Assembly: GCA_020850615.1 (NCBI GenBank)
Contig: JADZEI010000038.1
Coordinates: 1-64,000, forward strand
Reading direction: 5' to 3'
DNA from: Dehalococcoidia bacterium
GTDB lineage: Bacteria; Chloroflexota; Dehalococcoidia; Tepidiformales; Tepidiformaceae
DNA: 64,000 bases
Shown here: one piece after another, positions 2,236-39,994 of the stretch
How the letters are laid out: each line of letters begins with the position of its first letter
Position numbering within the stretch: position 1 is the stretch's first letter
Position numbers and translations under genes: made by a program
Notes under the pieces: generated by a model
What the model saw: only the letters and a program-made list of their open reading frames with translations
Database searches by the model: none
Told to the model about the DNA's origin: nothing

Positions 2236-3318
2236 TTAGCCGCGAAGGGCGGCGATCGAGGAGCCATCGGCGACGGCCATGGCGCGTTCGATGCCGAGGG
2301 ATACCCAGCGGCCGTACTGTTCGAAGCCTTCGCCGCGGGTGACGCCGGCACGGAAGCGGGCATCGATGCCGGCCCAGATGACGACGAGCTTGTAGAGGCC
2401 GAGGAGGTAGTAGTAGTCGACACCGCTGATGTCGCGGCCACTGACTTCGCCGTAGCGGGCGGCCATCTGGTTTCGCGTCCAGAAGCCGGGGAGGGCAGTC
2501 GCGCCGCGTGTGCCGGGCGGGGGCTGCTCGCCCGGTGCGCCGGTGCCCTTCGCCCAGAGCGCCATGAGCCAGCCGAGGTCGGCGAGGGGGTCGCCGATGG
2601 CGGCCATCTCCCAGTCGAGGACGGCGGTGATGGCGCCGGGTTCCTGTTCGGAGAGGAGGACGTTGTGAAGGCCGAAGTCGCCGTGGACGACGGAGACGTC
2701 CTGGTGGGCGGGGAGGGCGGCTTCGAGACGGCGGCGGAGCTCGGCCATGGCGGGGTCGGGGGCCTCGACGGAGCGTTCGTACTGGTCGCTGAGGCGCTTG
2801 AGCTGGCGCTCGATGAAACTGCCGGGGCGGGCGAAGTCGCCGAGGCCGGCGTCCTGCCAATCGGCGGCGTGGATGGCCGCGAGGGTGCGGACCATGCTCT
2901 CGCAGGTCGCGGAGCGGGCGTCGTCGCCGCCGAGGGAGGCGGGCCATTCGGCGCCGCTGACCACGACGCCGGGGCAGTCCTCCATGAGGTAGAAGGGCTG
3001 ACCGATGAGGTCGCTTTCGTCGCAGACGGCGAGGACGCGGGGGAGGGGGATGCCGCGGCCGGCGAGCCCGCGGATGAAGCGGGATTCGCGGACCATGTCG
3101 TGGGCGCTGGGGAGGATGTGGCCGAGGGGCGGGCGGCGGAGGATGGCGCTGCCGTGTTCGAGCTGGAGGCGGTAGGTGAGGTTGGAGCGTCCGCCGCCGA
3201 TGAGGGTCGCGCCGCGCAGTGCGCCGAGCTCGGGGACGTGCGCGGCGAGGAAGGCGGCGATCGGGCCGGGGGCGATGCCCTCGGGGAGGGTCAGTTCGTC
3301 GAGTGCGTCATTGGACAT
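2236..3318 (-). CDS. Phosphotransferase family protein (APH/ACAD10 kinase-like)
   Basis: 360 aa with the choline/aminoglycoside kinase fold. The catalytic loop VVHGDFGLHNVLL and the metal-binding segment AVLDWEMAAIGDPLADLGW are intact. This branch resembles the kinase-like domain of ACAD10/11, which phosphorylates hydroxyacyl-CoAs before dehydrogenation; that role is inferred and fits the neighbouring acyl-CoA carboxylase and acyl-CoA dehydrogenase on the same strand. Start at 3318 follows an AGGAGG 6 nt upstream; the open frame begins 7 codons earlier without a better site. A paralogue lies at 58015-58956. Confidence 0.88.
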   Translation of the reverse strand: MSNDALDELTLPEGIAPGPIAAFLAAHVPELGALRGATLIGGGRSNLTYRLQLEHGSAILRRPPLGHILPSAHDMVRESRFIRGLAGRGIPLPRVLAVCDESDLIGQPFYLMEDCPGVVVSGAEWPASLGGDDARSATCESMVRTLAAIHAADWQDAGLGDFARPGSFIERQLKRLSDQYERSVEAPDPAMAELRRRLEAALPAHQDVSVVHGDFGLHNVLLSEQEPGAITAVLDWEMAAIGDPLADLGWLMALWAKGTGAPGEQPPPGTRGATALPGFWTRNQMAARYGEVSGRDISGVDYYYLLGLYKLVVIWAGIDARFRAGVTRGEGFEQYGRWVSLGIERAMAVADGSSIAALRG

Positions 3319-3745
3319 GGGAAGCCTCCTGTCCCTCACCCCCCTGCCCCCTCTCCCGCTGCGGCGGGCGAGGGGGAGCTGGTGCTTGGGATTCGCTGGG
3401 AATGGCGTTTGGACGCCTCGTTCCCCGAGTGCCGGCGAGGGCCCTCACCCCCCTGCCCCCTCTCCCGCTGCGGCGGGCGAGGGGGAGCTGGTGTTTCGGA
3501 TTCGCCGGGGAAGGCGTTTGGGCCGTCGGTTCCCCGGGTGTGTTCGTGGGGTGCCGGCGAGGGCCCTCACCCCCCTGCCCCCTCTCCCGCTGCGGCGGGC
3601 GAGGGGGAGCTGGTGGTACAGGTGCGGGGCGAGGGAGTTTGGATGCCTCGTTCCCCGAGTGTCGTCGTGGGTTGCCGAGCGAGGGCCCTCACCCCCTGCC
3701 CCCTCTCCCGCTGCGGCGGGCGAGGGGGAGCTGGTGGCAGTCGCG
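3319..3745. other. Spacer filled by a four-copy hairpin repeat
   Basis: No gene is supported. The spacer consists of four copies of a GC-rich imperfect palindrome separated by about 60-70 bp of partly similar filler (TTCCCCGAGTG, GTTTGGACGCC and variants). Open frames across it on the plus strand simply translate the repeat. Confidence 0.8.
3332..3735. repeat. Four-copy REP-like palindromic repeat
   Basis: About 50-bp copies start near 3332, 3442, 3564 and 3686 (spacing 110-122 bp), each running CCCTCACCCCCCTGCCCC, then CTCTCCCGC TGCG GCGGGCGAGGG and ending GGAGCTGGT. The arms can fold as a hairpin with one mismatch. The last copy lacks one C. A relative (CCCCTTCTCCCG/CGGGAGAAGGGG) occurs at 15050-15077. 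Confidence 0.9.
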
Positions 3746-4909
3746 CTAATAGAGCGGGACGCCGGATTCGAGGCCGAGCATGACGCGGCCGGCGGCTTCG
3801 TAGGTGTGGAGGCCGACGGCGGCGTGGTGGGTGGCGACGTTGAGGTCGCGGAAGGCGCGGTCGATGGGGGCGCCGGCGACGATTGAGCCCATGCCGCAGA
3901 GGGTGTAGATGTCGGTGACGGCGCGTGCGCTGCGGTTGACGGCGTCGGTGAAGCTGAGGCGCATGACGGCGCGCTGGTGCGGGGTCACTTCGCGGCCGGC
4001 GCAGACGGTGTCCCAGACCTCGGCGGCGATCTCGCGGGTGTAGGCGCGGGCGGAGCGGACGGCGGCTTCGGCCTGGGCCAGCATGATCTGGACGGTGCCG
4101 CGGTCGCGGAGCTGCTCGCCGGTGGCGAAGCTCTTGGGGCCGCCGGCCATGAGGACGAACTCATCGAGGGCGCGGCGGGCGACGCCGACGGCGTGGGCGG
4201 CCTGTCCGAGCCAGGCCGCGCCGCGGACCGCGTAGAGCGGCCCGGGCTGGCAGGCGCGCTCCTGGTCGTTCGACCACGTGAACTCGTCGGCAACGAAGAC
4301 ATCGGTGACGGCGACGTCGTGGCTGCCGGTGCCGGCGAGGCCGATGGTGTTCCACGTATCGATGACTTCGAACTGGGAGCTGGGGATGACGAGCGTGCGG
4401 AGGATGGCCTTGCCGTCAGCGTCGCGGAGGGTGTGCTGGCCGTCAGTGACGACGCAGCCGCCCATGAACCAGGAGGCGTGCTGGCAGCCGCTGCCGAAGG
4501 GCCAACGGCCGGTGACGCGGTAGCCGCCGGGGACGCGAAGGGCGCGGCCGCGCGGGGGGAAGGCGCCGGCGGTGATGATGCTCGGGTCGGCGAAGATCTG
4601 CCGCGCGACGGATGGTTCGAGGTAGCCGCTGATGAACCAGGCCGTGGCGAGGCCGATCATCAGCACCCAGCCGGTGGAGCCGTCGGCGCGGGAGACCTCT
4701 TCGATGGTGTCGAAGTAGGGAAGGTATTCGGCCTCCATGCCGCCGAATTCCTTCGGGACGGTGATGCTGAAGAGCCCGGCGTCGGCCATCTTGCGGACCA
4801 GCGGGAGGGGCACCCGGCGCTCGCGCTCCGTGGTGTCCGCGGTCGCGATGATCTCGGGCGCAAGGGCCTTCGCTCGCGCGAGCGGGTCCGTGACGGTGCT
4901 GAAGTCCAT
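3746..4909 (-). CDS. Acyl-CoA dehydrogenase family flavoprotein (HpaB/DszC-like group)
   Basis: 387 aa. The N-terminal helical domain (VPKEFGGMEAEY), middle beta domain (GRWPFGSGCQHASW) and C-terminal four-helix domain of the acyl-CoA dehydrogenase fold are present. The GRWPFGSG signature and lack of a clear catalytic Glu place it nearer to the flavin-dependent monooxygenase branch (type-2 C-terminal domain, as in HsaA, DszC and SfnC) than to beta-oxidation enzymes; this is inference. ATG 4909 follows GGAGG 8 nt upstream. It lies 31 bp downstream of the LLM oxidoreductase gene on the same strand, so the two are probably cotranscribed, and the LLM family includes partners that work with reduced flavin. 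Confidence 0.88.
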   Translation of the reverse strand: MDFSTVTDPLARAKALAPEIIATADTTERERRVPLPLVRKMADAGLFSITVPKEFGGMEAEYLPYFDTIEEVSRADGSTGWVLMIGLATAWFISGYLEPSVARQIFADPSIITAGAFPPRGRALRVPGGYRVTGRWPFGSGCQHASWFMGGCVVTDGQHTLRDADGKAILRTLVIPSSQFEVIDTWNTIGLAGTGSHDVAVTDVFVADEFTWSNDQERACQPGPLYAVRGAAWLGQAAHAVGVARRALDEFVLMAGGPKSFATGEQLRDRGTVQIMLAQAEAAVRSARAYTREIAAEVWDTVCAGREVTPHQRAVMRLSFTDAVNRSARAVTDIYTLCGMGSIVAGAPIDRAFRDLNVATHHAAVGLHTYEAAGRVMLGLESGVPLY

Positions 4910-4940: not shown

Positions 4941-5861
4941 CTAGAAGTTCAGCTTGGGGCGGACGTCGGAGACGAACCGCCGGAGGGATTCGAGGCGGGC
5001 ATCGACGCCGCCGCGGCCCATGATGTCGAGGATGATGTGTGAGACGCCGACCTCGGCGTATTCGCCGGCGCGGTTGACCATCTGGTCGACGTTCGACGAG
5101 AGCGACTTCGCTTCTTCGGCGGTGCCGTCCCAGTCGAGGTAGAGGCGGATCGAGAGCTCGAGCTTCGAGCCGTCGCGGCCCTCTTCGGCGCAGAGCTGCT
5201 GGACGCGCTGCCAGTGCTCGCCGAGCTCTTTCACCGGGGTGAAGGCGCCGTGGAGGCCGTCGCCGAAGCGGACCGTGCGGCGGAAGGCGGCTTCGGTGGT
5301 GCCGCCGACCCAGACCGGGATGTGGCCGTTGACCGGCTTCGGCTGGAACCCGATCTCGGGGAAGCTGTAGTACTTGCCGTTGTAGGACGGCAGGGGTTCG
5401 GTGAAGAGCTTTTCGAAGATCTCGAGCTGCTCGTCCGCGCGGGCACCGCGGTTGTCGTAGGGCATGCCGAGGATCTCGAACTCTTCGCGCATCCAGCCGA
5501 CGCCGACGCCGAGGATGGCGCGGCCGCCGGAGACGACATCGAGGGTCGACCAGAGCTTGGCGGTCTGCACCGGGGGCCGGTAGCCCATGATCATGACGGT
5601 GGTGCCGAGGCGGATGCGCTCGGTGCAGCCGGCGACAAAGAGCAGGGTGCCGATGGGGTCCAGCCAGGGGACGTTGAACGGCGCGGGGAAGCTGCCGTCC
5701 TTGGTGTAGGGATACTTCGAGTGGACCTCGGTGGGCCAGGCGATGTGGTCGCTGGTCCAGGCGGACTCGATGCCGAGCTGGTCTGCCTCGCGGGCGAAGC
5801 GGATGAGATGGTCGCGGTCCGCCTGGCGGCCGAGATGGGGCAAATGGACACCGATCTGCAC
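4941..5861 (-). CDS. LLM-class (luciferase-like) F420-dependent oxidoreductase
   Basis: 306 aa, typical of TIGR03619-type LLM proteins. The start QIGVHLPHLG, the segment ESAWTSDHI and the conserved LDVVSGGRAILGVGVGW region (around residues 95-115) identify a TIM-barrel flavin/F420 oxidoreductase. The start is the GTG at 5861, preceded by GGGAGG at 7 nt; the frame runs 28 codons further upstream but through a palindrome and -10-like sequence. A possible -10 (TAGTAT on the minus strand, 5917-5922) and a perfect 8-bp inverted repeat (5892-5913) lie just upstream. Substrate unknown. Confidence 0.88.
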   Translation of the reverse strand: MQIGVHLPHLGRQADRDHLIRFAREADQLGIESAWTSDHIAWPTEVHSKYPYTKDGSFPAPFNVPWLDPIGTLLFVAGCTERIRLGTTVMIMGYRPPVQTAKLWSTLDVVSGGRAILGVGVGWMREEFEILGMPYDNRGARADEQLEIFEKLFTEPLPSYNGKYYSFPEIGFQPKPVNGHIPVWVGGTTEAAFRRTVRFGDGLHGAFTPVKELGEHWQRVQQLCAEEGRDGSKLELSIRLYLDWDGTAEEAKSLSSNVDQMVNRAGEYAEVGVSHIILDIMGRGGVDARLESLRRFVSDVRPKLNF

Positions 5862-5891
5862 TGCACAACCTCCCGTGGGTGCGCCCGCCCG

Positions 5892-5913
5892 CGCGAACCC
5901 GTCACGGTTCGCG
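5892..5913. promoter_or_regulatory. Perfect inverted repeat at the LLM gene promoter (operator candidate)
   Basis: CGCGAACC (5892-5899) and GGTTCGCG (5906-5913) with a 6-bp spacer, immediately downstream of a minus-strand -10-like TAGTAT (5917-5922). The position near the expected transcription start fits a repressor site for the 5861 to 3746 gene pair. Confidence 0.45.
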
Positions 5914-5958
5914 ACCATACTACGCGGGGTCGCAACCGGCGACATGGTGCGCCGAAAT

Positions 5959-6125: not shown

Positions 6126-8315
6126 GTGGCGACAGTGCTGGGGCGTGCTACCGAGATCGTCCACTTCACGGACCCGCTGCCGCCGGGGACGGGGCTGCGC
6201 GAGCTGCTCGGCGGGAAGGCGGCCGGCCTGGTGGAGATGACGCGGGACCTCGCGTTGCCGGTGCCGCCGGGATTCGTGGTCACGACGGAGGTATGCCGGG
6301 AGTACCTGGCCAGCGGCTGGCCGGACTGGCTGGATGCGGGCCTCGGCGAGGCGATCGAGCGGCTCGGGAAGCAGCTGGGGCTCGGGTTCGGTGACCCGGC
6401 GGCGCCGCTGCTGGTTTCGGTGCGGTCCGGGGCGCCGGTTTCGATGCCGGGCATGATGGACACGTGCCTGAACGTGGGCATGACGCCCGCGATTGCCGCG
6501 GCGATGCGGTCGGCGGACGGGGACGCGGCGTTCGGGGCCGATTGCTGGCTGCGCTTCTGCCGGATGTACGCGGAGATCGTCTGCGGGTTGCCGCGGGACG
6601 CCGTGGGGGCGGCCGCCGTGCACGACGACTCGGCGGCATCGCGGATGGGCGCGGCGGCGCGGATCCAGCAGCTGGTGCACGAGGCCGGCGGCGACATCCC
6701 GACCGACCCGCGGGCGCAGCTCGGGGCGGCGACCGAAGCGGTGTTCCGGTCGTGGACGTCCGAGCGGGCGCGGCTGTTCCGCCAGCGCGAGGGGATCGCG
6801 GAGGAGATGGGCACGGCCGTGACGGTGCAGGCGATGGTGTTCGGCAACCGCGACGAGCGCTCCGGCACGGGGGTGGTGTTCACCCGGAACCCATCGACGG
6901 GCGAGGCGGCGCCATTCGGCGACTACCTGCGCTGCGCCCAGGGCGAAGACGTGGTGGCCGGGACGCACGTGGTCCACGGGCTGAGCGAGCTTGGCGCGCA
7001 GTTGCCGGGCGTACACGATGAGCTGCTCGGGATCCTGGGGCGGCTCGAACACCACTACCGGGACATGTGCGATGTCGAGTTCACCGTGAGCAGCGGCCGC
7101 CTCTACGTGCTACAGGTGCGGGTCGGGCGGCGGGCGCCGGTCGCGGCGGCACGCATCGCGGTCGAGATGGCGGAGGACCCAGAGTTCCCGGTGGACCGGG
7201 CGGAGGCTGTCGCGCGTGTGGGGCACGACGTGCTGGCGCAGCTCGCCGAAGCGACGCACGTGGACCAGTCGGCGGTGCCGCTGGGCCACGGACTGGCGGC
7301 GTCGCCGGGCGTGGGCGTTGGCGTGCTGTGTTGCGACCCCGACCGCGCGGCCGAGCTGGCGGGGGAGGGCGTGGCGGTGGTGCTGGCGCGGGAGGACACA
7401 TCGCCAGAGGACGTGCACGGGATGGTGAACGCGGCGGCGATCGTGACGACGCGGGGCGGGGTCGTGAGCCACGCTGCGGTGGTGGCGCGGAGCTGGGCGA
7501 TCCCGGCGGTGACGAGCCTGGCGGACACGCGGGTGGAAGGCGGCCTGCACGTCGCGGGCGCGTTCGTCCCCGAGGGGGCGGTCGTGACGGTCGATGGCAG
7601 CCATGGCGCCGTGTACCTGGGGGACTGCCGCGAATCGGGCGAGGCGGAAGTGCCGTGGGCGCTGACCATCCGGGAGTGGGCCGCGGAGCTCGGCGTCGAG
7701 CCCGGGACGCGGGTCGAGGCGGGCGCAGAGCAGGATGGCCGGCCGGTCGTGCTGTTCGAGTTGCTGCGGACGGTGCAGCTCAAGGGGCTGTGCGCGGTGG
7801 CGCGGGCGGCCGCGTACCTGGGGAGCTCGGAGGAGGCGGTCACGAGCTGCGTGGCCGGCGCGGCGGAGCTGTTCAAGGAGACGCCGCGGGGGCTGATGCT
7901 CACGCCACAGGGCCGGGCGCAGGTGGCTGCGGGGCTGGCCGCGGAGCATGCCGCGGCCGGCAGCCTCGACCCGTGCTACGAGGCGTTCCTGCCGCTGAAC
8001 GCGGGGTTCAAGGAGCTGGTCACGTGGTGGCAGACGGAGGGGCAGGCGAACGCGGCGGCGAACCTGCCACAGCTCATGGGCGGGCTTTCGCCGATACACG
8101 AGGCGCTGATGCCGCTGGTGGTGGCGAGCGCCGAGCAGGTCGCGCGGCTGGCGGCGTACCGGCGGCGGTTCGAACACGCGCTGGAGACGCTCGGCGGCGG
8201 TGACGTTTCGATGCTGGCATCGCCGCTGAAGGAGAGCTACCACACCGTGTGGTTCGACTACCACGAGGAGCTGATCGCGCTTTCCGGGCGCAACCGGGCG
8301 GACGAAGAGACGTGA
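6126..8315 (+). CDS. Pyruvate-phosphate-dikinase-like protein: ATP-grasp and phosphohistidine domain with winged-helix-like C-terminus, no PEP barrel
   Basis: 729 aa. Residues 1-350 match the PPDK nucleotide-binding half: GGKAAGLVEM near 30, SVRSGAPVSMPGMMDT near 100, VVFTRNPSTGE near 255 and CDVEFTV near 318. The swivel domain carries TRGGVVSHAAVVAR with the phosphorylated His at residue 449. The family's C-terminal PEP/pyruvate TIM barrel is absent. In its place residues about 540-600 look like a winged helix (LKGLCAVARAAAYLGSS, then LMLTPQGRAQVAAG) followed by a helical tail. GTG at 6126 follows AAGGGGG at 7 nt. The next gene, 87 bp on, encodes a second phosphohistidine protein, so the two may form one multi-subunit dikinase as in phenylphosphate synthase; the acceptor substrate is unknown. 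Confidence 0.85.
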   Translation: MATVLGRATEIVHFTDPLPPGTGLRELLGGKAAGLVEMTRDLALPVPPGFVVTTEVCREYLASGWPDWLDAGLGEAIERLGKQLGLGFGDPAAPLLVSVRSGAPVSMPGMMDTCLNVGMTPAIAAAMRSADGDAAFGADCWLRFCRMYAEIVCGLPRDAVGAAAVHDDSAASRMGAAARIQQLVHEAGGDIPTDPRAQLGAATEAVFRSWTSERARLFRQREGIAEEMGTAVTVQAMVFGNRDERSGTGVVFTRNPSTGEAAPFGDYLRCAQGEDVVAGTHVVHGLSELGAQLPGVHDELLGILGRLEHHYRDMCDVEFTVSSGRLYVLQVRVGRRAPVAAARIAVEMAEDPEFPVDRAEAVARVGHDVLAQLAEATHVDQSAVPLGHGLAASPGVGVGVLCCDPDRAAELAGEGVAVVLAREDTSPEDVHGMVNAAAIVTTRGGVVSHAAVVARSWAIPAVTSLADTRVEGGLHVAGAFVPEGAVVTVDGSHGAVYLGDCRESGEAEVPWALTIREWAAELGVEPGTRVEAGAEQDGRPVVLFELLRTVQLKGLCAVARAAAYLGSSEEAVTSCVAGAAELFKETPRGLMLTPQGRAQVAAGLAAEHAAAGSLDPCYEAFLPLNAGFKELVTWWQTEGQANAAANLPQLMGGLSPIHEALMPLVVASAEQVARLAAYRRRFEHALETLGGGDVSMLASPLKESYHTVWFDYHEELIALSGRNRADEET

Positions 8316-8402
8316 GCGAGGACGCATCTATCGCGGTGATTGACACGACGCCGGTTCGCACTACCATTCGGCCTTCTTTCATCCTGTCCTGTGAGGTCTG
8401 AC

Positions 8403-10154
8403 ATGCCTGGTATCCGCTGGATCGAAGACCAGCCCTTCATCGCGAAGGTGCCGTTCATGACGCGCGCGAACGTGGGGGAGGTGATCCCCGAGCCGCCGAG
8501 CCCGCTGGGCTGGGACCTGGTGTTCGCGAACGGGGGCACGATCCGCGGCTGGCGGGACTGCGCCACGGTGCGACTGGGCATCGGCGAGGAGGAGCTGGAC
8601 CCGGACCCGAACCGGCACGAATGGATCGGCCTGCAGGGCGGGTATGGCTACCTGAACGCGGCCTGGATCCGGATCTGGGGCGAGCGGACACCCGGGATGA
8701 GCGCGGCGGCGATCGACGCGGCCTACTTCGGCGACCACCCGGACGTCCCGCCATACGTGGCGGAGCCGTGGCACCAGAACCCGGCGACGACGGAGAAGAT
8801 GACGGAGTGGCTCGGCTGGGTGATGGGCACCATGGAGCAGGACGAGCTGAACGAGAGCCGGGAGGAGTCGCGGCGGGTGCGGGCGAGCCGGCCGAACCTC
8901 GCGACGGCGACGGACCGGGAGCTGCTGGACCGGGCAATCAGCATGCGGCCGCTCTGCCGGAAGATGTTCGATATCCACATCAACCAGAGCGGGGCGGCGG
9001 CGATCGGGCCGGGGACGATCACGGCGGTCTGCGCGGCGATCGGGAAGCCGGAGGCGGCGATGCGGCTGATCGTGGGCCTCGGGGGCGTGGATTCGGCGGC
9101 GCCTTCGTATGCGATGTGGGAGCTGAGCCGGAAGGTGCGGGCTTCGGCGGCGCTGATGGCGATGTTCGACGCGGGGCCGGCTGGGCTGAACGCGCGGTTG
9201 CGTGCATCCGATGCGCCGGACGCGCAGGCGTTCGTCAGCGCGTTCGACGAGTTCCTGGCGGAGTTCGGCTCGCGCGGGCCGAACGAGTGGGACCTCATCG
9301 CGGCGACGTGGGAGACGACCCCGGACATCGCCCTGGCGGCGATCGACCGGATGCGGCTGGCGGCGGACAGCGAATCGCCGCGCGGGCACACGGAGAGCCG
9401 CGAGGCGGAGCGGAAGGCGGTCGAAGCGGAGGTGCTGGAAGCGCTCGCAGGCGACCCGGAGACACAGGCGACGTTCCGCGCGGCGATGGCGAGCTCGGCG
9501 ACGTACGTGCCGGGGCGCGAGCGCGCGAAGACGACGATCGTGCGGGTGATCGAGGAATCGCGCGTGGCGGTGTGGGAGATTGGCCGGCGGGCGATGGAGC
9601 GCGGTGAGATCGACCACCCGAGCGAGATCTGCTACCTGTTCCAGGACGAGCTGAGCGACTACATCGACGGGAAGCTGACGGGCGTGAAGGAGCTGGTGGC
9701 GGCGCGGAAGGCGCACCGCGAGTGGCTGCAAACGCTGGAACCGCCGTTCATCATCAACGGGCCGCCGCCGCCGAACACGACCTGGCCGAAGCGTTCCGAC
9801 CGCACGGTGGCGCCAGTGAGCGCGGGAGAGGTGCTGGCGGGCGTGTCCGGGTGCCCCGGCACGGCGCGGGGCCGGGCGCGGGTGGTGCTGGACCCCTCGG
9901 ACCCGACGGTGCTCGAGCCGGGGGACATCCTGGTGGCGCCGATGACCGACCCGGCGTGGACGCCGCTGTTCGTGCCCGCGGCGGGCGTGGTGGTGGACGT
10001 GGGGGCGGCGCTGAGCCACGCGATCATCGTGAGCCGCGAGCTGGGCATCCCCTGCGCGGTCTCGGTGACCGGGGCGTCACAGCGCATCCCGGACGGGGCG
10101 CTCGTGGAGGTAAACGGCGACCAGGGGACGGTGACGGTCCTCGAGTTGCCCTGA
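8403..10154 (+). CDS. PEP-utilising-enzyme mobile-domain protein (second dikinase component)
   Basis: 583 aa. The last about 90 residues form a phosphohistidine swivel domain with GAALSHAIIVSRELGIP, His539 in the catalytic position. The first about 480 residues are helical, lack an ATP-grasp and are of the type found in the substrate-binding part of rifampicin phosphotransferase and in the 70-kDa subunit of phenylphosphate synthase (family knowledge; assignment by resemblance). ATG 8403 follows GAGG; the frame is open 21 codons earlier without a ribosome site. With the 6126 gene upstream it could transfer ATP-derived phosphate to an unknown alcohol or phenol. No CBS-domain third subunit is next to it. 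Confidence 0.8.
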   Translation: MPGIRWIEDQPFIAKVPFMTRANVGEVIPEPPSPLGWDLVFANGGTIRGWRDCATVRLGIGEEELDPDPNRHEWIGLQGGYGYLNAAWIRIWGERTPGMSAAAIDAAYFGDHPDVPPYVAEPWHQNPATTEKMTEWLGWVMGTMEQDELNESREESRRVRASRPNLATATDRELLDRAISMRPLCRKMFDIHINQSGAAAIGPGTITAVCAAIGKPEAAMRLIVGLGGVDSAAPSYAMWELSRKVRASAALMAMFDAGPAGLNARLRASDAPDAQAFVSAFDEFLAEFGSRGPNEWDLIAATWETTPDIALAAIDRMRLAADSESPRGHTESREAERKAVEAEVLEALAGDPETQATFRAAMASSATYVPGRERAKTTIVRVIEESRVAVWEIGRRAMERGEIDHPSEICYLFQDELSDYIDGKLTGVKELVAARKAHREWLQTLEPPFIINGPPPPNTTWPKRSDRTVAPVSAGEVLAGVSGCPGTARGRARVVLDPSDPTVLEPGDILVAPMTDPAWTPLFVPAAGVVVDVGAALSHAIIVSRELGIPCAVSVTGASQRIPDGALVEVNGDQGTVTVLELP

Positions 10155-10854: not shown

Positions 10855-10931
10855 TGGCGACCCCGAGCGGATTCGAACCGCCGATCTCCACCTTGACAGG
10901 GTGGCATGTTAGGCCGCTACACCACGGGGCC
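10855..10931 (-). tRNA. tRNA-Asp (anticodon GTC)
   Basis: Read on the minus strand the cloverleaf is complete: acceptor GGCCCCG with CGGGGTC, D arm GTGT/ACAT, anticodon stem CCACC/GGTGG with loop CTGTCAA (GTC anticodon), T arm around TTCGAAT, discriminator G, and an encoded CCA (10857-10855). A hairpin (GCTCCG/CGGAGC, 10825-10841) lies 14 nt past the 3' end without a U-tract. Confidence 0.97.
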
Positions 10932-16803: not shown

Positions 16804-17615
16804 GTGCCCGCGCGTTTGCCGGTGTGGTTCGGCTGGTACACCCGTTCCCGTCGCTGCTCGTGGCGCTCGTCACGGTAGGGATCGTGCCGCTGGCGGATGC
16901 GGATGCCCCGCTGAGCCGCTACCTCGTGCTCGGCGCCGGGATGCTGTACTTCCAGTTCGCGATCGGGGCGGCGAACGACGTGGTCGACGCGCGGGAGGAT
17001 GCGGCGGCGAAGCCGTGGAAGCCGATCCCGGCGGGAGCGGTGTCGCGGCGGCTGGCGATCGGGGTGGCGGCGGGGTTCGCGGCGGTGGGGCTCGCGGTCA
17101 CGGGCGGGTTGCCGGCGGGGGCGTGGTACGTGGGGCTCGCCGGGCTGGCGTGCGGGCTGCTCTACGACGTGCGGTTCAAGCGGACAGCGCTGAGCTGGTT
17201 GCCGCTCGCGGTGGCGCTGCCGCTGGTGCCGGCGTGGGTGTACCTGGCCTCGGACGCGTGGAGCCAGCTGCTCTGGTGGGCGTTCCCGCTGGGGGCGCTG
17301 CTCGGGCTCGCCGTGCACCTGGCCAACCAGGCGCCGGACGTCGATGCGAACCCCGGCGAGCCAGGCCTGGCCGCGGCGATCGGCGCGCGGGCGTCGGCGC
17401 GCCTGGCGCTGCTGGTGTTCGGGCTGGCGGCGTCGGGGGCGGTGGCCGTGCTGCTGTTCGAAAGCGCCGAGCGGGCGTGGGCGGTGGCAGCCCTGGCTGC
17501 GGCGACGCTGCTCCTCGCGCGGCGGGCGGTGCGCTTCTTCGGGCGGAACGGGCTGTTCGGGTTGCTGGCGACGGCCTCGGGAGTGCTGGGGCTGCTGTTC
17601 GTGTCAGCTGCCTGA
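16800..17615 (+). CDS. UbiA-family prenyltransferase
   Basis: 271 aa, about eight hydrophobic helices. The first aspartate-rich motif ANDVVDAREDAAAKPWKP (near 60-77) binds the prenyl diphosphate magnesium; the second is NQAPDVDANPGE (near 178-189). The family joins polyprenyl chains to quinone, haem or glycerol acceptors in the membrane. The acceptor is unknown; no other quinone gene lies nearby. GTG at 16800 overlaps the upstream oxidase stop; the 3' end overlaps the convergent small gene at 17604 by 12 bp. Confidence 0.88.
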   Translation: MSARAFAGVVRLVHPFPSLLVALVTVGIVPLADADAPLSRYLVLGAGMLYFQFAIGAANDVVDAREDAAAKPWKPIPAGAVSRRLAIGVAAGFAAVGLAVTGGLPAGAWYVGLAGLACGLLYDVRFKRTALSWLPLAVALPLVPAWVYLASDAWSQLLWWAFPLGALLGLAVHLANQAPDVDANPGEPGLAAAIGARASARLALLVFGLAASGAVAVLLFESAERAWAVAALAAATLLLARRAVRFFGRNGLFGLLATASGVLGLLFVSAA

Positions 17616-17831
17616 GGCGCGGGCGTCCTCGGCTTCGATGCGGCGAAGGCGGCGGTCGATGCTGCGGAGGGCGTGGCGGAGGATCGCCATCGTGATGAAG
17701 AAGTCGAGCCAGAGGAGGACGACACCGAGGCAGAGGAAGATGTCCTGGACGATGCGCTGGTTGATGAGCACGGCGAGCAGCACGAACAGCACGCCGATGC
17801 CTGAGACGATCGAAGGCAGGACGATCAGCAC
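17604..17831 (-). CDS. Small two-helix membrane protein
   Basis: 75 aa: two hydrophobic segments (about 2-22 and 28-50) followed by a charged tail HALRSIDRRLRRIEAEDARASGS, a typical short coiled-coil-like end. Family not recognised. Start is the GTG at 17831 with GGGGGAAA 5 nt upstream. It sits 19 bp after the phosphatase gene on the same strand and is likely cotranscribed. The hydrophobic profile and good start support reality. Confidence 0.6.
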   Translation of the reverse strand: MLIVLPSIVSGIGVLFVLLAVLINQRIVQDIFLCLGVVLLWLDFFITMAILRHALRSIDRRLRRIEAEDARASGS

Positions 17832-29219: not shown

Positions 29220-30638
29220 CTAGGCCCCCGTGCTTCCCGCGGTGCGGCCGGCGGGCAGTGTCGTGCGCGTTTCGGTGGCGTTGAAGAGCCAGCGGTTCTT
29301 GGCCAGGGGGGTGCCGACGACCATCTTGAGGAAGGTCCGGCTCACGGTGATGGCGGAGAACATGCTGACGGCGACGCCGATGGCGAGCGTGAGCGAGAAG
29401 CCCTTCACGAGCGAGGCGCCGAACTGGTCGCCGAACCAGTAGAGGATGGCGCAGGTGATGAAGGTGGAGATGTTCGAGTCGCGGATGGAGGACCAGGCGC
29501 GGTGGAAGCCGATGTCGATGGCGCGGTTGAGGGTGTGGCCGCGGCGGAGCTCCTCTTTCATGCGCTCGAAGATGAGGATGTTGGCGTCGACGGCCATGCC
29601 GACGGAGAGGACAAATGCGGCGATGCCGGAGAGGGTGAGCGTGATGGGCTCACCGCCGGGGATGCCAAGCTTGAAGATCATGAGGGTGATGGCCGTGTAG
29701 ACACCGAGGGCGCAGGCCGCGAGGAAACCGAGGAGCCGGTAGTAGAGGATCATGAACAGGGCGACGGCGAGGAGGCCGACCTCGCCGGCGTGGACGGACT
29801 GCTGGACGGAGTCCTCGCCGAGGGTGGCGCTCACTTCGCTCGAGGCGATGACGCGGAAGGGGATGGGCAGGGCGCCGGCGTTGAGCTGGCGGGAGAGGTC
29901 GCGGGCGGCGCCGAAGCTGTCCTGGCCGGTGAGCTGGCCCTGGTCGGAGATGATGCTCTGGACAACGGCGGGGTTGCCGATGGCCTGGTCGTCGAGGAAG
30001 AAAACGAGCTGGCGGCGGGGGTCGCTGGCGCCGAACTGGACGGCTTTCGCGGTGATCTGCTCGAAGAGGTCCGAGCCGCGGCCGGTGGTTTCGAAGTTGA
30101 CGACGAAGTCGGTGCCCTGGCGGGCGGGGTAGGTGTTGCTCTTGAGGTGCTCGCCGGTGAACTGGATCTCTTCGCCGTTGATGTTGCCGGTCGCGGGGAC
30201 GAGCTGGCCGGTTTCGTCGAAGGTGAAGAGGCGCAGCTGGGCGGTCGTGCCGATCAGGTTCTGGGCGTCGGTGAGCGAGATGCCGGGCACCTGGACTTCG
30301 ATGCGGTTGCCGCTGACCTTCGAGATCTCGGCTTCGGAGGTGCCGAGGGAGTTCACGCGGCGCTCGAAGACATCGCGGGCGGATTCGACGGCCTGGCCGA
30401 TGTCACCTTCGTAGTCCTCGGGCGGGTCGGCTTCGACGACGAGGCGAGAGCCGCCGCGAAGGTCGAGGCCGAGGCGCATGGTCTCCCGTTCCCAGTCGCC
30501 GATCTTGATGCCGCGGCCTTCAGGCCAGAAGTCGCCGGGGAGGTAGCGATTGGGCGTGCTGGGCCAGACGGCCACGACGGCGAAGCCGGTGAGCACGACG
30601 ACGAACAGGAACAGGGCCAGGGTGGATGGACTACGCAC
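29220..30638 (-). CDS. secD: Protein translocase subunit SecD
   Basis: 472 aa. Helix 1 (about 7-26), the P1 periplasmic region beginning with LGLDLRGGSRLVVEAD (near 57) and VPGISLTDAQNLIG, and the C-terminal five-helix block including LSVGMAVDANILIFERMKEELRRG (near 348) are all present. Works with SecF and YajC in protein export. GTG at 30638 overlaps the yajC stop by 8 bp, implying coupled translation. Confidence 0.95.
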   Translation of the reverse strand: MRSPSTLALFLFVVVLTGFAVVAVWPSTPNRYLPGDFWPEGRGIKIGDWERETMRLGLDLRGGSRLVVEADPPEDYEGDIGQAVESARDVFERRVNSLGTSEAEISKVSGNRIEVQVPGISLTDAQNLIGTTAQLRLFTFDETGQLVPATGNINGEEIQFTGEHLKSNTYPARQGTDFVVNFETTGRGSDLFEQITAKAVQFGASDPRRQLVFFLDDQAIGNPAVVQSIISDQGQLTGQDSFGAARDLSRQLNAGALPIPFRVIASSEVSATLGEDSVQQSVHAGEVGLLAVALFMILYYRLLGFLAACALGVYTAITLMIFKLGIPGGEPITLTLSGIAAFVLSVGMAVDANILIFERMKEELRRGHTLNRAIDIGFHRAWSSIRDSNISTFITCAILYWFGDQFGASLVKGFSLTLAIGVAVSMFSAITVSRTFLKMVVGTPLAKNRWLFNATETRTTLPAGRTAGSTGA

Positions 30639-30969
30639 TCGGCTGTGAAACCTCCGGCTTCGCCGTATCGGTTGGTGTTGGGGCCGGCTCCAGGGTGGTC
30701 AGGCGCCGGTGGATCGCCTCGGTGACGGCGCGGACGCGGACGCCGGGAGCGACCTGGAGGATGATCTCGGTGGGACCATCGACGGGCTGGACGATGTCGA
30801 CGACTTCGCCGATGAGACCGCCGGTGGTGACGACTTCGTCGCCGACCTGGAGCGCCTGCTGGGCCTTGCGCTGCTGCTTTTTCTCTTTGAGCACGGGCTG
30901 GAGCAGGATGAAGTAGAACGCCGCCACCGCGAGGACGGTGTAGAAGATGACGCTCCACATGACAGCCAT
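30631..30969 (-). CDS. yajC: Preprotein translocase subunit YajC
   Basis: 112 aa. One N-terminal helix (4-24, ending FYFILLQPVLKEKK) followed by the small cytoplasmic domain LQVGDEVVTTGGLIGEVVDI, both diagnostic of YajC. C-terminal tail is Pro/Thr-rich. ATG 30969 follows GGAG. First gene of the yajC-secD-secF operon. Confidence 0.94.
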   Translation of the reverse strand: MAVMWSVIFYTVLAVAAFYFILLQPVLKEKKQQRKAQQALQVGDEVVTTGGLIGEVVDIVQPVDGPTEIILQVAPGVRVRAVTEAIHRRLTTLEPAPTPTDTAKPEVSQPSA

Positions 30970-37223: not shown

Positions 37224-38678
37224 TCAGGGAAGCCAGGCGACGGCGCCGCCGGAGGTGAACGGCCGCGCATCGCCGTTGCGGAGGTCGAGGAGCCAGGCGA
37301 CTTCGAAGACCATGTCGCCGACGTACTCCTGGGTGCTGAAGGTGGCCGTGTTGGGGCCGACGGCGCGGATGTCGCGGACGCTGAAGTACGGGACGATGCG
37401 ACGGGTGCCGTTGGAGAGCTCGGCGATGGTGATGCCGTTTTCGCCCTTGCGTGCGTAGGACTCGTGGTAGATGAGCGTGTCGGCGTCGACCCATGCGGCG
37501 AGGTTGCCGATGGAGCCGCCGCACTTGCCGCCGACGGGGATCTGCTCGGCGCGCGGGACCTGGCGGATGGCCCCGGTTTCGAGGTCGAGGATGCGGAGGG
37601 GGCCGAGGAACGCGTTCATGAGCAGCGAGCGGCCGTCCGGGCCGAGGACGAGCTGGCCGACGCCGCCTTCGTCGAAGGCATTGGCGATGGGCGAGGCGGT
37701 GCCGTCGGGCGAGACGCGGTAGAGGGAGCGGTAGTCGGTGCCGACGGCGATGATCGTGCGGCCATCGGCGTCCCAGATGCCCTGCGGGGAGATGGTCTCG
37801 GGGAGCGGGATGGTGGTCAGCTCGCCGGTGGCGGGATCGATGATCGCGAAGGCGGGCTTGCAGGGGCCGGAGCAGGCCCAACCGTAGGAGGCGAGAAGGC
37901 GGCCGCCGGCGGACCAGTCGAGCGGGTAGGCGTCGCGGTACTCCTGCTGGACGCCGGAGATGGTGTCAGCGAGGACGATGCTGCTGCCGCGCTCGGTGGT
38001 GTTGAACCCCGTGGCCCAGCGGCCGCCGGGGGAGAAGTGGGGGATGACGCCGCCGATGCCCTGCTGGACGTTCGGCAGTTCGAACCCGGGGCGCAGCGGG
38101 CGGCCATCGCCGTCGACGCGGAGGATCTCCATCGCGATGTCGCTGGTGCTGTGGAGGACGATGGCTTCGCCGGAGGGCGGCGCAACGGGGACGACGGAGG
38201 GGTCGGGGCGGGTGTAGGCGATGGCGACCCAGCCCTGGCCGAGGGCGTAGCGCCACTGTTCGCCGTCGACGGTGACCGGGTCGCCGAAGAGCCAGAGGAG
38301 GGTGCGGTCCGGGACGCAGACGCGGGGGTCGCCGCCGAAGGTGGTGCCAGGCGTGAGGCGGACGTTCAGGCAGTCGCCGTCGCCGGTGGCCACGCGGACG
38401 GGGTCTGCGGCGATGGGGCCGGCGGGGAGGCGAGGGGGCCCGGAAGGAATGAGCTCTTTGGGCGGCGGCGTCGCGGTGGAGGTGGGGATCGGGGTGGGGG
38501 ACGGGGTCGCGGGCTCGGCTGTGGGCGATGGCGACGGTGTGGTTACGGCGGTGGGCGTGGGTTCGTTGCCGCGATTGGGCGACTGGGCGGGCGCCATGAG
38601 CGCGCCCGCGAGGATACCCGCGGCAGCACCCCCCACGACGACGCTCGCCCGGATCGCGCGGATATCGAGATGCCGCAT
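37224..38678 (-). CDS. Secreted beta-propeller protein with Pro/Thr-rich linker
   Basis: 484 aa. A signal-anchor (about 9-31), a low-complexity linker of Pro/Thr/Ser (38-75), an SH3-like segment (LNVRLTPGTTFGGDPRVCVP, near 103-122) and a series of TolB/WD-like blades (PHFSPGGRWATGFN, YPLDWSAGGRLLASYG, GIWDADGRTIIAVG, LVLGPDGRSLLMNAF). It is probably outside the membrane, binding an unknown partner. ATG 38678 follows GGGAGGG at 6 nt. Confidence 0.8.
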   Translation of the reverse strand: MRHLDIRAIRASVVVGGAAAGILAGALMAPAQSPNRGNEPTPTAVTTPSPSPTAEPATPSPTPIPTSTATPPPKELIPSGPPRLPAGPIAADPVRVATGDGDCLNVRLTPGTTFGGDPRVCVPDRTLLWLFGDPVTVDGEQWRYALGQGWVAIAYTRPDPSVVPVAPPSGEAIVLHSTSDIAMEILRVDGDGRPLRPGFELPNVQQGIGGVIPHFSPGGRWATGFNTTERGSSIVLADTISGVQQEYRDAYPLDWSAGGRLLASYGWACSGPCKPAFAIIDPATGELTTIPLPETISPQGIWDADGRTIIAVGTDYRSLYRVSPDGTASPIANAFDEGGVGQLVLGPDGRSLLMNAFLGPLRILDLETGAIRQVPRAEQIPVGGKCGGSIGNLAAWVDADTLIYHESYARKGENGITIAELSNGTRRIVPYFSVRDIRAVGPNTATFSTQEYVGDMVFEVAWLLDLRNGDARPFTSGGAVAWLP

Positions 38679-38749
38679 GGCGCCCTCCCGTCGGCGTCGT
38701 CGCTATTCTGCCCTGTTCGACGACGGGAGTGGCGGAAAAGTTCCGGCCT

Positions 38750-39994
38750 TTACGTACCGGCGGGGCCGACGAAGGTGATCGGCATGCCGAGCGCGCCCTG
38801 GCCGAGGGAGAGGAGCAGCTCGTCGGTCTTCCAGGCCATGACGTTGCCGCCGACCATGTCGCGGAAGATGCGCTCGAGCTCGCGAGCCTTCACGTAGGCG
38901 TGTGCGCCGCAGACCTTCATGGCACCCTGGGAGACCTCCTCGCTCATGCGGCGGAGGTGGTAGACGGTGCGGGAGATGTGCCGGGTGAACGCCTGCGGGT
39001 CGGGGAAGGGCTCGTCGAGGCGGCGGACGGTGTCGTAGAGCACGATGCGGGCGGTTTCGAGCCAGTGCTCCATGTTGCCGATGCCGAACTGGGCCCAGGC
39101 CTGGTCGCTGCGGAAGCCGGGGCCGGGGCCGGTTCCGATCGTGATGGTGGGGCCGGCGAGGTAGCCGTGGCGGTGCTTGACGTAATCGATGGTGAAGTCG
39201 AACGCGGCCTGGGCGAGGCCGAGCCAGATGGCGGCGATGCCGAGGCCGCCCTTGGCACGGTTCTGCGTCATGGGGGTCGAGACGGAGCCCTGGGCCTGGA
39301 TGATCACGCGGAGCATCGCCTGGGGGATGATCAGCGTCTCGGACTTCGGGATGCGGGCCTCTTCGGCGACGATGTCGTGGCTGGCGGTGCCGCGCAGGCC
39401 GAGGGCGTCCCAGTTGTAGAGGAGCTTGATGCCGGGGGTGCTCAGCTCGGGCAGGGTGAGGGCGAGGTCCGGCTCCTGGTCGTCGTCGCGCTCGATGAGA
39501 CCGGCCATGATGGTGTACTTCGCGCCTTCGGACATGGAGGCGAAACCGGCCTTGCCGTTGATGACGATGTGGTCGCCGTCGTCGCGCATGCGGAAGCCGG
39601 CCTTGCGGTTGTCGAGCTCGCCGGTGGGGACGGAGGCGGGGCCGCACATGAGCGCGCCGTTCTTGCCGATGTCCTCGAGGACGGCGTTGCGCCGGGGGAA
39701 GGGGGGCATGAAGGAAAGGAAGTCGGCGCCGAGGACGTGCATGTTCAGGGCGACAGCCGTGGAGGCGTCGCCGTAGCCGATCTCCTCCATGATGCGGATC
39801 TGGGTGGTGGGGCTGACGCCGAGGCCGCCCAGGTCCTTCGCGAGGGCCATGCCGGGGATGCCGAGCTCCTTGAGCTCGGCGATGTTCTCGGTGGGGAAGC
39901 GGCCCTTTTCGTCGACGTCCCGGGCGCGGGACGCGAACTTGGTCCGCGAGAGTTCAGATACAGCGGCAATGAGCTCCTGCTCGGTCATTCCCAT
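38750..39994 (-). CDS. Acyl-CoA dehydrogenase
   Basis: 414 aa with the full three-domain fold: LGIPGMALAKDLGGLGVSPT near 45, FAD/acyl region GFRMRDDGDHIVINGKAGFA near 132, NWDALGLRGTASHDI near 190 and helical C-domain ending GGNVMAWKTDELLLSLGQ. It should oxidise an acyl-CoA; the chain or branching is not evident. Start ATG 39994, with GGAGG about 11 nt upstream; an ATG two codons later is also possible. Stands alone on the minus strand before the HAD gene. Confidence 0.9.
   Translation of the reverse strand: MGMTEQELIAAVSELSRTKFASRARDVDEKGRFPTENIAELKELGIPGMALAKDLGGLGVSPTTQIRIMEEIGYGDASTAVALNMHVLGADFLSFMPPFPRRNAVLEDIGKNGALMCGPASVPTGELDNRKAGFRMRDDGDHIVINGKAGFASMSEGAKYTIMAGLIERDDDQEPDLALTLPELSTPGIKLLYNWDALGLRGTASHDIVAEEARIPKSETLIIPQAMLRVIIQAQGSVSTPMTQNRAKGGLGIAAIWLGLAQAAFDFTIDYVKHRHGYLAGPTITIGTGPGPGFRSDQAWAQFGIGNMEHWLETARIVLYDTVRRLDEPFPDPQAFTRHISRTVYHLRRMSEEVSQGAMKVCGAHAYVKARELERIFRDMVGGNVMAWKTDELLLSLGQGALGMPITFVGPAGT

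Follow-up and report, generated by a model that had tools for sequence, protein, structure and literature searches.

VadK (Rv1127c) of Mycobacterium tuberculosis has been published as a regulator of the methylcitrate cycle. It autophosphorylates its His422, and its operonic partner Rv1126c improved VadK solubility upon co-expression, 2 M NaCl being used to separate the two; a partner resembling rifampicin phosphotransferase (RPH) is not named in the available sections of that paper (PMC13400623). Here, we describe a pair of adjacent genes, P1 and P2, in a window of 64,000 nucleotides (the whole stretch analysed; positions 1 to 64,000 of the forward strand of contig JADZEI010000038.1, assembly GCA_020850615.1) from a Dehalococcoidia bacterium of the phylum Chloroflexota. 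P1 looks like a pyruvate phosphate dikinase (PPDK) without its phosphoenolpyruvate (PEP)/pyruvate barrel, and P2 like an RPH without its ATP-grasp. Because these halves are complementary and their adjacency is conserved, we consider it rather probable that they form a split small-molecule dikinase in which P1 charges P2. The parts are known, and their arrangement is new. The original prediction, made from the sequence of the window, of a possible new multi-subunit dikinase still stands for the arrangement as a possibility; for P1, VadK is a published relative. The features of the pair are as follows.

P1: 6126-8315, plus strand; 729 aa, with a PPDK-type ATP-grasp, a swivel and a winged-helix/helical C-terminal domain
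P1 ATP-grasp of PPDK_N type: 6198-7235 (limits approximate), plus strand; from a domain search and alignment with solved PPDKs
P1 swivel (PEP-utilizers), residues 418-494: 7377-7607, plus strand
P1 His449 codon CAC, in the motif GGVVSHAA: 7470-7472, plus strand
P1 C-terminal domain, residues ~543-729: 7752-8312, plus strand; from alignment and a predicted model
P2: 8403-10154 (ATG start), plus strand; 583 aa, or 604 aa from TTG 8340; RPH-like helical domain and swivel
P2 acceptor-binding (RIF-binding-like) helical region: 8403-9812 (limits approximate), plus strand
P2 swivel (PEP-utilizers): 9915-10127, plus strand
P2 His539 codon CAC, in the motif VGAALSHAIIV: 10017-10019, plus strand

The pair is real: both open reading frames (ORFs) are long and conserved, with orthologs at 57-74 % identity, which argues against a chance occurrence. 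In Pfam, P1 matches PPDK_N at E 2.7e-40 and, for the swivel, PEP-utilizers at E 1.3e-17. With full-length PPDK it aligns over residues 23-504 only, and with solved PPDKs its aligned part starts at residue 13-23 and ends at ~500-534 (best score 349 bits); the ATP-grasp motifs LGGK, SVRSG, QGEDVV and Q-R-G are retained. In the swivel, the residue preceding the motif serine is Val, where PPDK has a Thr to which a regulatory role is ascribed (PMC12167813, available text). Domain and family searches gave no match to a PEP/pyruvate barrel in P1 or P2, so that P1 is, as predicted, an ATP-grasp with a swivel histidine and no barrel. Could the pair be the product of a PPDK gene that was disrupted or rearranged, and still form PEP? 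Over residues 24-519, P1 shares 45 % identity with the PPDK of its own genome, but neither protein has the barrel, the C terminus of P1 is conserved as another domain, and a separate 873-aa PPDK is encoded on another contig of the same genome. We find this scarcely credible and ruled out a PEP-forming split PPDK on the missing barrel and the separate full enzyme. Canonical PPDK genes had no P2-family match within ~25 kb among the matches listed, as judged by eye.

The sole Pfam match of P2 is PEP-utilizers (E 1.1e-20), and domain and family searches found no ATP-grasp in it. At the family level, it matches the RedH type over residues 34-602 and RPH over 298-601. A P2-family profile built from 22 relatives aligns at positions 163-587 with positions 456-878 of the RPH structure (E 3.4e-66), and the AlphaFold2 model of P2 (mean pLDDT 89.9) matches rifampin-bound RPH, 5fbt (E 8.5e-20, TM 0.66 by query). 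The swivel histidine, invariant in 22 aligned relatives, is His539 when counted from ATG 8403, the likely start given those of relatives, and His560 from the listed TTG 8340. The predicted helical domain with its own swivel and without an ATP-grasp is thus confirmed, as is the presence of a histidine in both subunits. The same genome also encodes a single-chain RPH-like protein (an 833-aa frame, L033, G000:C61) that is 31 % identical to P2.

If the two proteins work together, their genes should travel together. P1 orthologs were found in 18 of the 148 genomes sampled (the genome itself and its relatives; Bradyrhizobium loci were counted separately), all of them Chloroflexota: the genome itself and 17 others at 57-62 % identity. 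A P2-family gene adjoins P1 in all 18 and at 2/2 Bradyrhizobium loci, although in one of the 18 (G027) the contig ends inside P2, leaving only its tail visible, and in another (G024) P1 is partial. The co-occurrence by which the multi-subunit idea was to be judged is therefore borne out. P2 precedes P1 in the 17 relatives; P1 comes first in the window and at both Bradyrhizobium loci. The partner is either a close homolog (~70 %) or a paralog (~45-52 %), and in G010 two tandem P2-family genes precede P1 (L063:8611-14401), suggesting that two acceptor subunits may share a single P1. Each of three single-contig genomes (G013, G029, G032) has PPDK_N in three proteins only, one of ~780 aa, one RPH-like and P1, making P1 the one ATP-grasp there that is not joined to a known second half in a longer chain; the argument is limited by shorter ATP-grasp frames elsewhere in four P1 genomes (G010, G022, G062, G092). 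Among seven loci with a stand-alone ATP-grasp, an adjacent acceptor-type protein, weakly P2-like, is found in three (L123, L124, L131), and none was detected in L122, L125, L126 and L127. With the P2 helical model, these acceptor proteins reach 17-34 bits and full-length P2 proteins ~550-740, a comparison biased by the fact that several of the full-length proteins built the model.

In the mechanism we propose, the barrel-less PPDK P1 would bind ATP and phosphorylate its own His449, as printed for its relative VadK. Phosphate would then reach His539 of P2, either from His449 or by direct charging from the P1 ATP-grasp, upon which the P2 swivel would turn to the RPH-like helical domain and phosphorylate a hydroxyl of the bound small molecule, as RPH and HpeHI lead us to expect. 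The C-terminal winged helix of P1, equivalent to Rv1126c, would probably serve in docking or control. As the ATP-grasp of P1 is of PPDK type, ATP + Pi -> AMP + PPi would be the likelier first half-reaction. In a variant, the P1 ATP-grasp would charge the P2 swivel in one step, in the way that HpeI charges HpeH, leaving His449 regulatory or vestigial. HpeHI and PpsAB indeed operate with one histidine, on the acceptor subunit (PMC12167813, available text), and the P2 histidine is invariant; however, GGxxSHAA is retained in 18/18 fused P1 sequences inspected, and VadK does phosphorylate its own histidine in print, so that we regard this variant as possible, if improbable. P1 as a counterpart of HpeI/PpsB, that is, a stand-alone PEP-synthase-type ATP-grasp without a swivel, was ruled out, since P1 is of PPDK type and has one. 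The parallels originally drawn with phenylphosphate synthase and RPH stand for the P2 half, while P1 is VadK-like rather than PpsB/HpeI-type.

What relates P1 to VadK beyond the missing barrel and the histidine is the conserved C-terminal domain (residues ~543-729), which was absent from the original prediction. The fused P1 relatives share an invariant K, WQ and SxHTxWFxxH in it (17 aligned rows). Stand-alone homologues of ~200 aa adjoin barrel-less PPDKs on an M. avium plasmid (35 % identity to the P1 domain, E 8e-30), in Diaphorobacter and in Rhodococcus; on the plasmid of Rhodococcus LW-XY12, the domain is also found fused to an AMP-binding protein (L055:12198-14369). At four loci judged mycobacterial (L087, L088, L089, L091), a copy (201 aa in L087 and L089) lies next to VadK, in a gene order matching what we take to be that of the Rv1121-Rv1127c region. 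Homology and this gene order together indicate that the domain corresponds to Rv1126c. In its predicted model (pLDDT 89.2), a winged helix leads into long helices. MarR-type folds match the winged helix only, over ~70 residues (5hso: Z 11.9, rmsd 1.5, 70 aligned), and barely probe the helical remainder; Foldseek with the domain model returned nothing at E <= 0.001. P1 scores 448.7 bits with the VadK model NF004531, whose cut-off is 456.

In the tree, the 14 rows of fused P1 proteins, from Chloroflexota, Acidimicrobiia and Bradyrhizobium, group in a single clade (100/98), and fusion of a VadK-type protein with an Rv1126c-type domain is seen in two places, this clade and the mycobacterial locus L149. 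Judged by its sequence, P1 combines the architectures of VadK and Rv1126c in one chain but falls in a clade of its own, so that we call it VadK-like in architecture rather than a VadK ortholog; the barrel may have been lost more than once. The winged-helix domain recurs as an accessory to the charging subunit, probably for docking or control. It was present in 7/7 genomes searched (five P2-bearing Acidimicrobiia and two Bradyrhizobium) and in 33/396 Actinomycetota genomes. In the order of Bradyrhizobium, it occurs in only 2/397 genomes, suggesting that these copies were probably acquired. Stand-alone winged-helix genes of Acidimicrobiia have conserved surroundings of the DHDPS, RNase J and FtsK families (L102, L103, L104, L105, L107, L117, L120), neighbours that gave no functional clue.

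Several observations weigh against a split dikinase. P2-type genes without an adjacent P1 occur in Acidimicrobiia, where P1 was sought within 8 kb flanks, and in Tepidiforma, and no VadK-type ATP-grasp was found in three P2-bearing metagenome-assembled genomes (G149, G150, G153). Conversely, two Acidimicrobiia have a P1-type fusion and no P2 in the stretch (L119, and L121, which runs off its contig). The domain often stands alone, with a PPDK-type gene beside it at 11 and a P2-family gene near it at 2 (L092, L095) of 30 Actinomycetota loci inspected, and at L115 the winged-helix gene adjoins a full-length PPDK. Finally, the P1 clade falls outside the 22-row actinobacterial VadK clade (99/99; root arbitrary), so that the published VadK chemistry is carried across clades. 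The P2 genes found away from P1 would suit a P2 that works independently of P1, as a transphosphorylase between phosphorylated alcohols or with another donor, and HpeH alone does move phosphate from 4-phosphoacetophenone to acetovanillone (PMC12167813, available text). That P1 always adjoins a P2-family gene in the Chloroflexota searched makes this very unlikely in our view.

If P1 is VadK-like, does VadK itself have an RPH-like partner? Rv2047c is presented as a protein with NAD-epimerase and PEP-utilizing parts whose gene shares an operon with pks12 (PMC7058343, available text). The proteins of model NF004520 have a Rossmann-like start, then P2-type helical and swivel regions with an SH motif, and this SDR plus RPH-like half is, as an architecture read from sequence, that of Rv2047c in the description. 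In 148 mycobacterial genomes (the genus of G304; full-length NF004520 match, 400 bits or more), the Rv1126c-type domain is found in 71 and full-length NF004520 in 63: both in 61, the domain only in 10, NF004520 only in 2 and neither in 75 (Fisher P 4.8e-28, a value that ignores shared ancestry). NF004531 matches 72/148, in G577, G578 and G586 only via frames >900 aa. Six of the 10 domain-only genomes have a P2-like protein that starts 0.7-3.8 kb from the start of the domain. Four loci (L145, L146, L147, L148) combine VadK, a winged-helix gene, an Rv2047c-like gene and an ORF of 4,164-4,421 codons within 20 kb; the simple gene caller overlooked two of these genes, the winged-helix one at L146 and VadK at L147, which the searches with the domain and with NF004531 place there. 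At L149, a VadK-domain fusion lies near an Rv2047c-like gene and a polyketide synthase (PKS). In the tree, L145-L148 form one clade and L149 stands apart. The giant ORFs of two of the five loci were domain-scanned and both are PKSs, with two sets of KS, AT, DH, ER, KR and ACP domains in L145 and one set in the partial ORF of L149; Pks12 is laid out as two module sets (PMC3318773) and is 4151 aa long (PMC7261415, available text). Two further mycobacterial clusters (L150, L151) each hold VadK and three P2-like proteins.

These loci suggest VadK/Rv1126c/Rv2047c as a candidate for the missing mycoketide kinase. In a 2012 review, the kinase reaction that leads to mannosyl phosphomycoketide still lacked an assigned enzyme. 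We put forward tentatively, and as somewhat less probable than its contrary, a widespread system of a VadK-type charger, an Rv1126c-type domain and exchangeable RPH-like acceptors, in which VadK/Rv1126c would charge Rv2047c to phosphorylate the Pks12 product mycoketide. Our search of open-licence papers found none joining VadK, Rv2047c and mycoketide. In the available part of Table 1 of PMC7058343, the transposon sequencing calls for carboxymycobactin, high mycobactin, low mycobactin, hemin, hemoglobin and hemin/mycobactin are, in this order, NE, ES, GD, NE, NE, ES for rv1127c, NE, ES, ES, NE, NE, GD for rv2047c and NE, GD, GD, NE, NE, GD for pks12; the profiles of rv1127c and rv2047c are alike, and the mycobactin-specific requirement is common to the three genes but also to several others in the table. 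VadK is given as absent from M. smegmatis (PMC13400623, available text). Against a mycoketide kinase, the available sections of PMC13400623 connect VadK with the methylcitrate cycle through co-immunoprecipitation and flux, do not have Rv2047c among the five proteins of Table 1 and report phthiocerol dimycocerosates unchanged by two-dimensional thin-layer chromatography (mycoketides are not mentioned there). Counter-cases in our mycobacterial searches are G593 and G630, with the Rv2047c type and neither domain nor VadK, G655, which is described below, and G615, in which VadK and the Rv2047c type are both broken.

The same literature supports reading P1 as a regulatory histidine kinase that tunes flux, as in the VadK model, with P2 co-regulated and mechanistically separate. 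VadK autophosphorylates, methylcitrate synthase and dehydratase co-immunoprecipitate with it, and methylcitrate flux changes when it is lost (PMC13400623, available text); moreover, in G655, a reduced mycobacterial genome of 3.27 Mb, the VadK frame is still open although the Rv1126c- and Rv2047c-type genes are broken. This reading, however, leaves unexplained both the adjacency of P1 and P2 in two phyla and in both orders and the loci that combine VadK, an Rv2047c-like gene and a PKS, and we consider it unlikely. On the split-dikinase reading, VadK, a regulatory kinase published without a dedicated phosphate receiver, gains a concrete candidate partner, and a candidate kinase is proposed for a CD1c-presented lipid antigen. 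This mycobacterial link is the most valuable consequence of our finding and directly testable.

The genes around the pair offer less guidance. Judged by eye from first residues, the neighbours of P1-P2 vary: in some Chloroflexota they resemble, for instance, PIG-L, enoyl-CoA hydratase and CoA-transferase genes, and in Bradyrhizobium cell-wall and release-factor genes. Inferring the acceptor from the window neighbours was ruled out by this variation, and the suggested role in aromatic, steroid or acyl-CoA catabolism finds no support in them; the predicted lack of a nearby CBS subunit agrees with the lack of a CBS domain in the 10 neighbouring ORFs tested. Overall, the original interpretation is partly supported. 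Near P1, on the opposite strand, lie genes for a carboxyl-transferase (518-2947, minus), an APH-type phosphotransferase (2239-3339, minus), an acyl-CoA dehydrogenase (3749-4909, minus) and a luciferase-like monooxygenase (4944-5945, minus). The window also holds tRNA-Asp(gtc) (10855-10931, minus) and tRNA-Ala(ggc) (17538-17618, plus). In actinobacterial and Diaphorobacter clusters, DUF7065 proteins, one also with DUF7064, adjoin P2-like genes (L054:9311-10225; L056:25300-26190, 29702-30754 and 38543-39505; L150:9668-10651).

Finally, we would like to place the pair among the enzymes it resembles. With PPDK, P1 shares the ATP-grasp and the swivel histidine but not the C-terminal PEP/pyruvate barrel, whose place is occupied by another domain. 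P2 has the acceptor-binding helical and swivel histidine domains of RPH, yet RPH is a single chain and P2 has no ATP-grasp in its own. Taken together, the pair suggests that a PPDK half can be combined with an RPH half in trans, so that a single charging subunit might supply several subunits specific for different acceptors. Rv2047c, which co-occurs with VadK-type parts, resembles P2 in its RPH-like helical region and swivel without an ATP-grasp, and differs in its N-terminal SDR/epimerase-like domain and distant sequence. The phenol dikinases HpeHI, CreHI and PpsAB (PMC12167813, available text) likewise place ATP binding and acceptor plus swivel on separate proteins, with an RPH-like acceptor subunit. 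Their ATP subunit is PEP-synthase-like and lacks a swivel, whereas P1 is of PPDK type, has a swivel and carries a further domain; the split plan is common to both, but the ATP subunit P1 is of another lineage and has a histidine of its own. Also close to P1 are VadK and Rv1126c of M. tuberculosis (PMC13400623, available text), a barrel-less PPDK with ATP-grasp and swivel histidine and its ~200-aa partner gene: two genes there, and one fused gene, in a separate clade, for P1.

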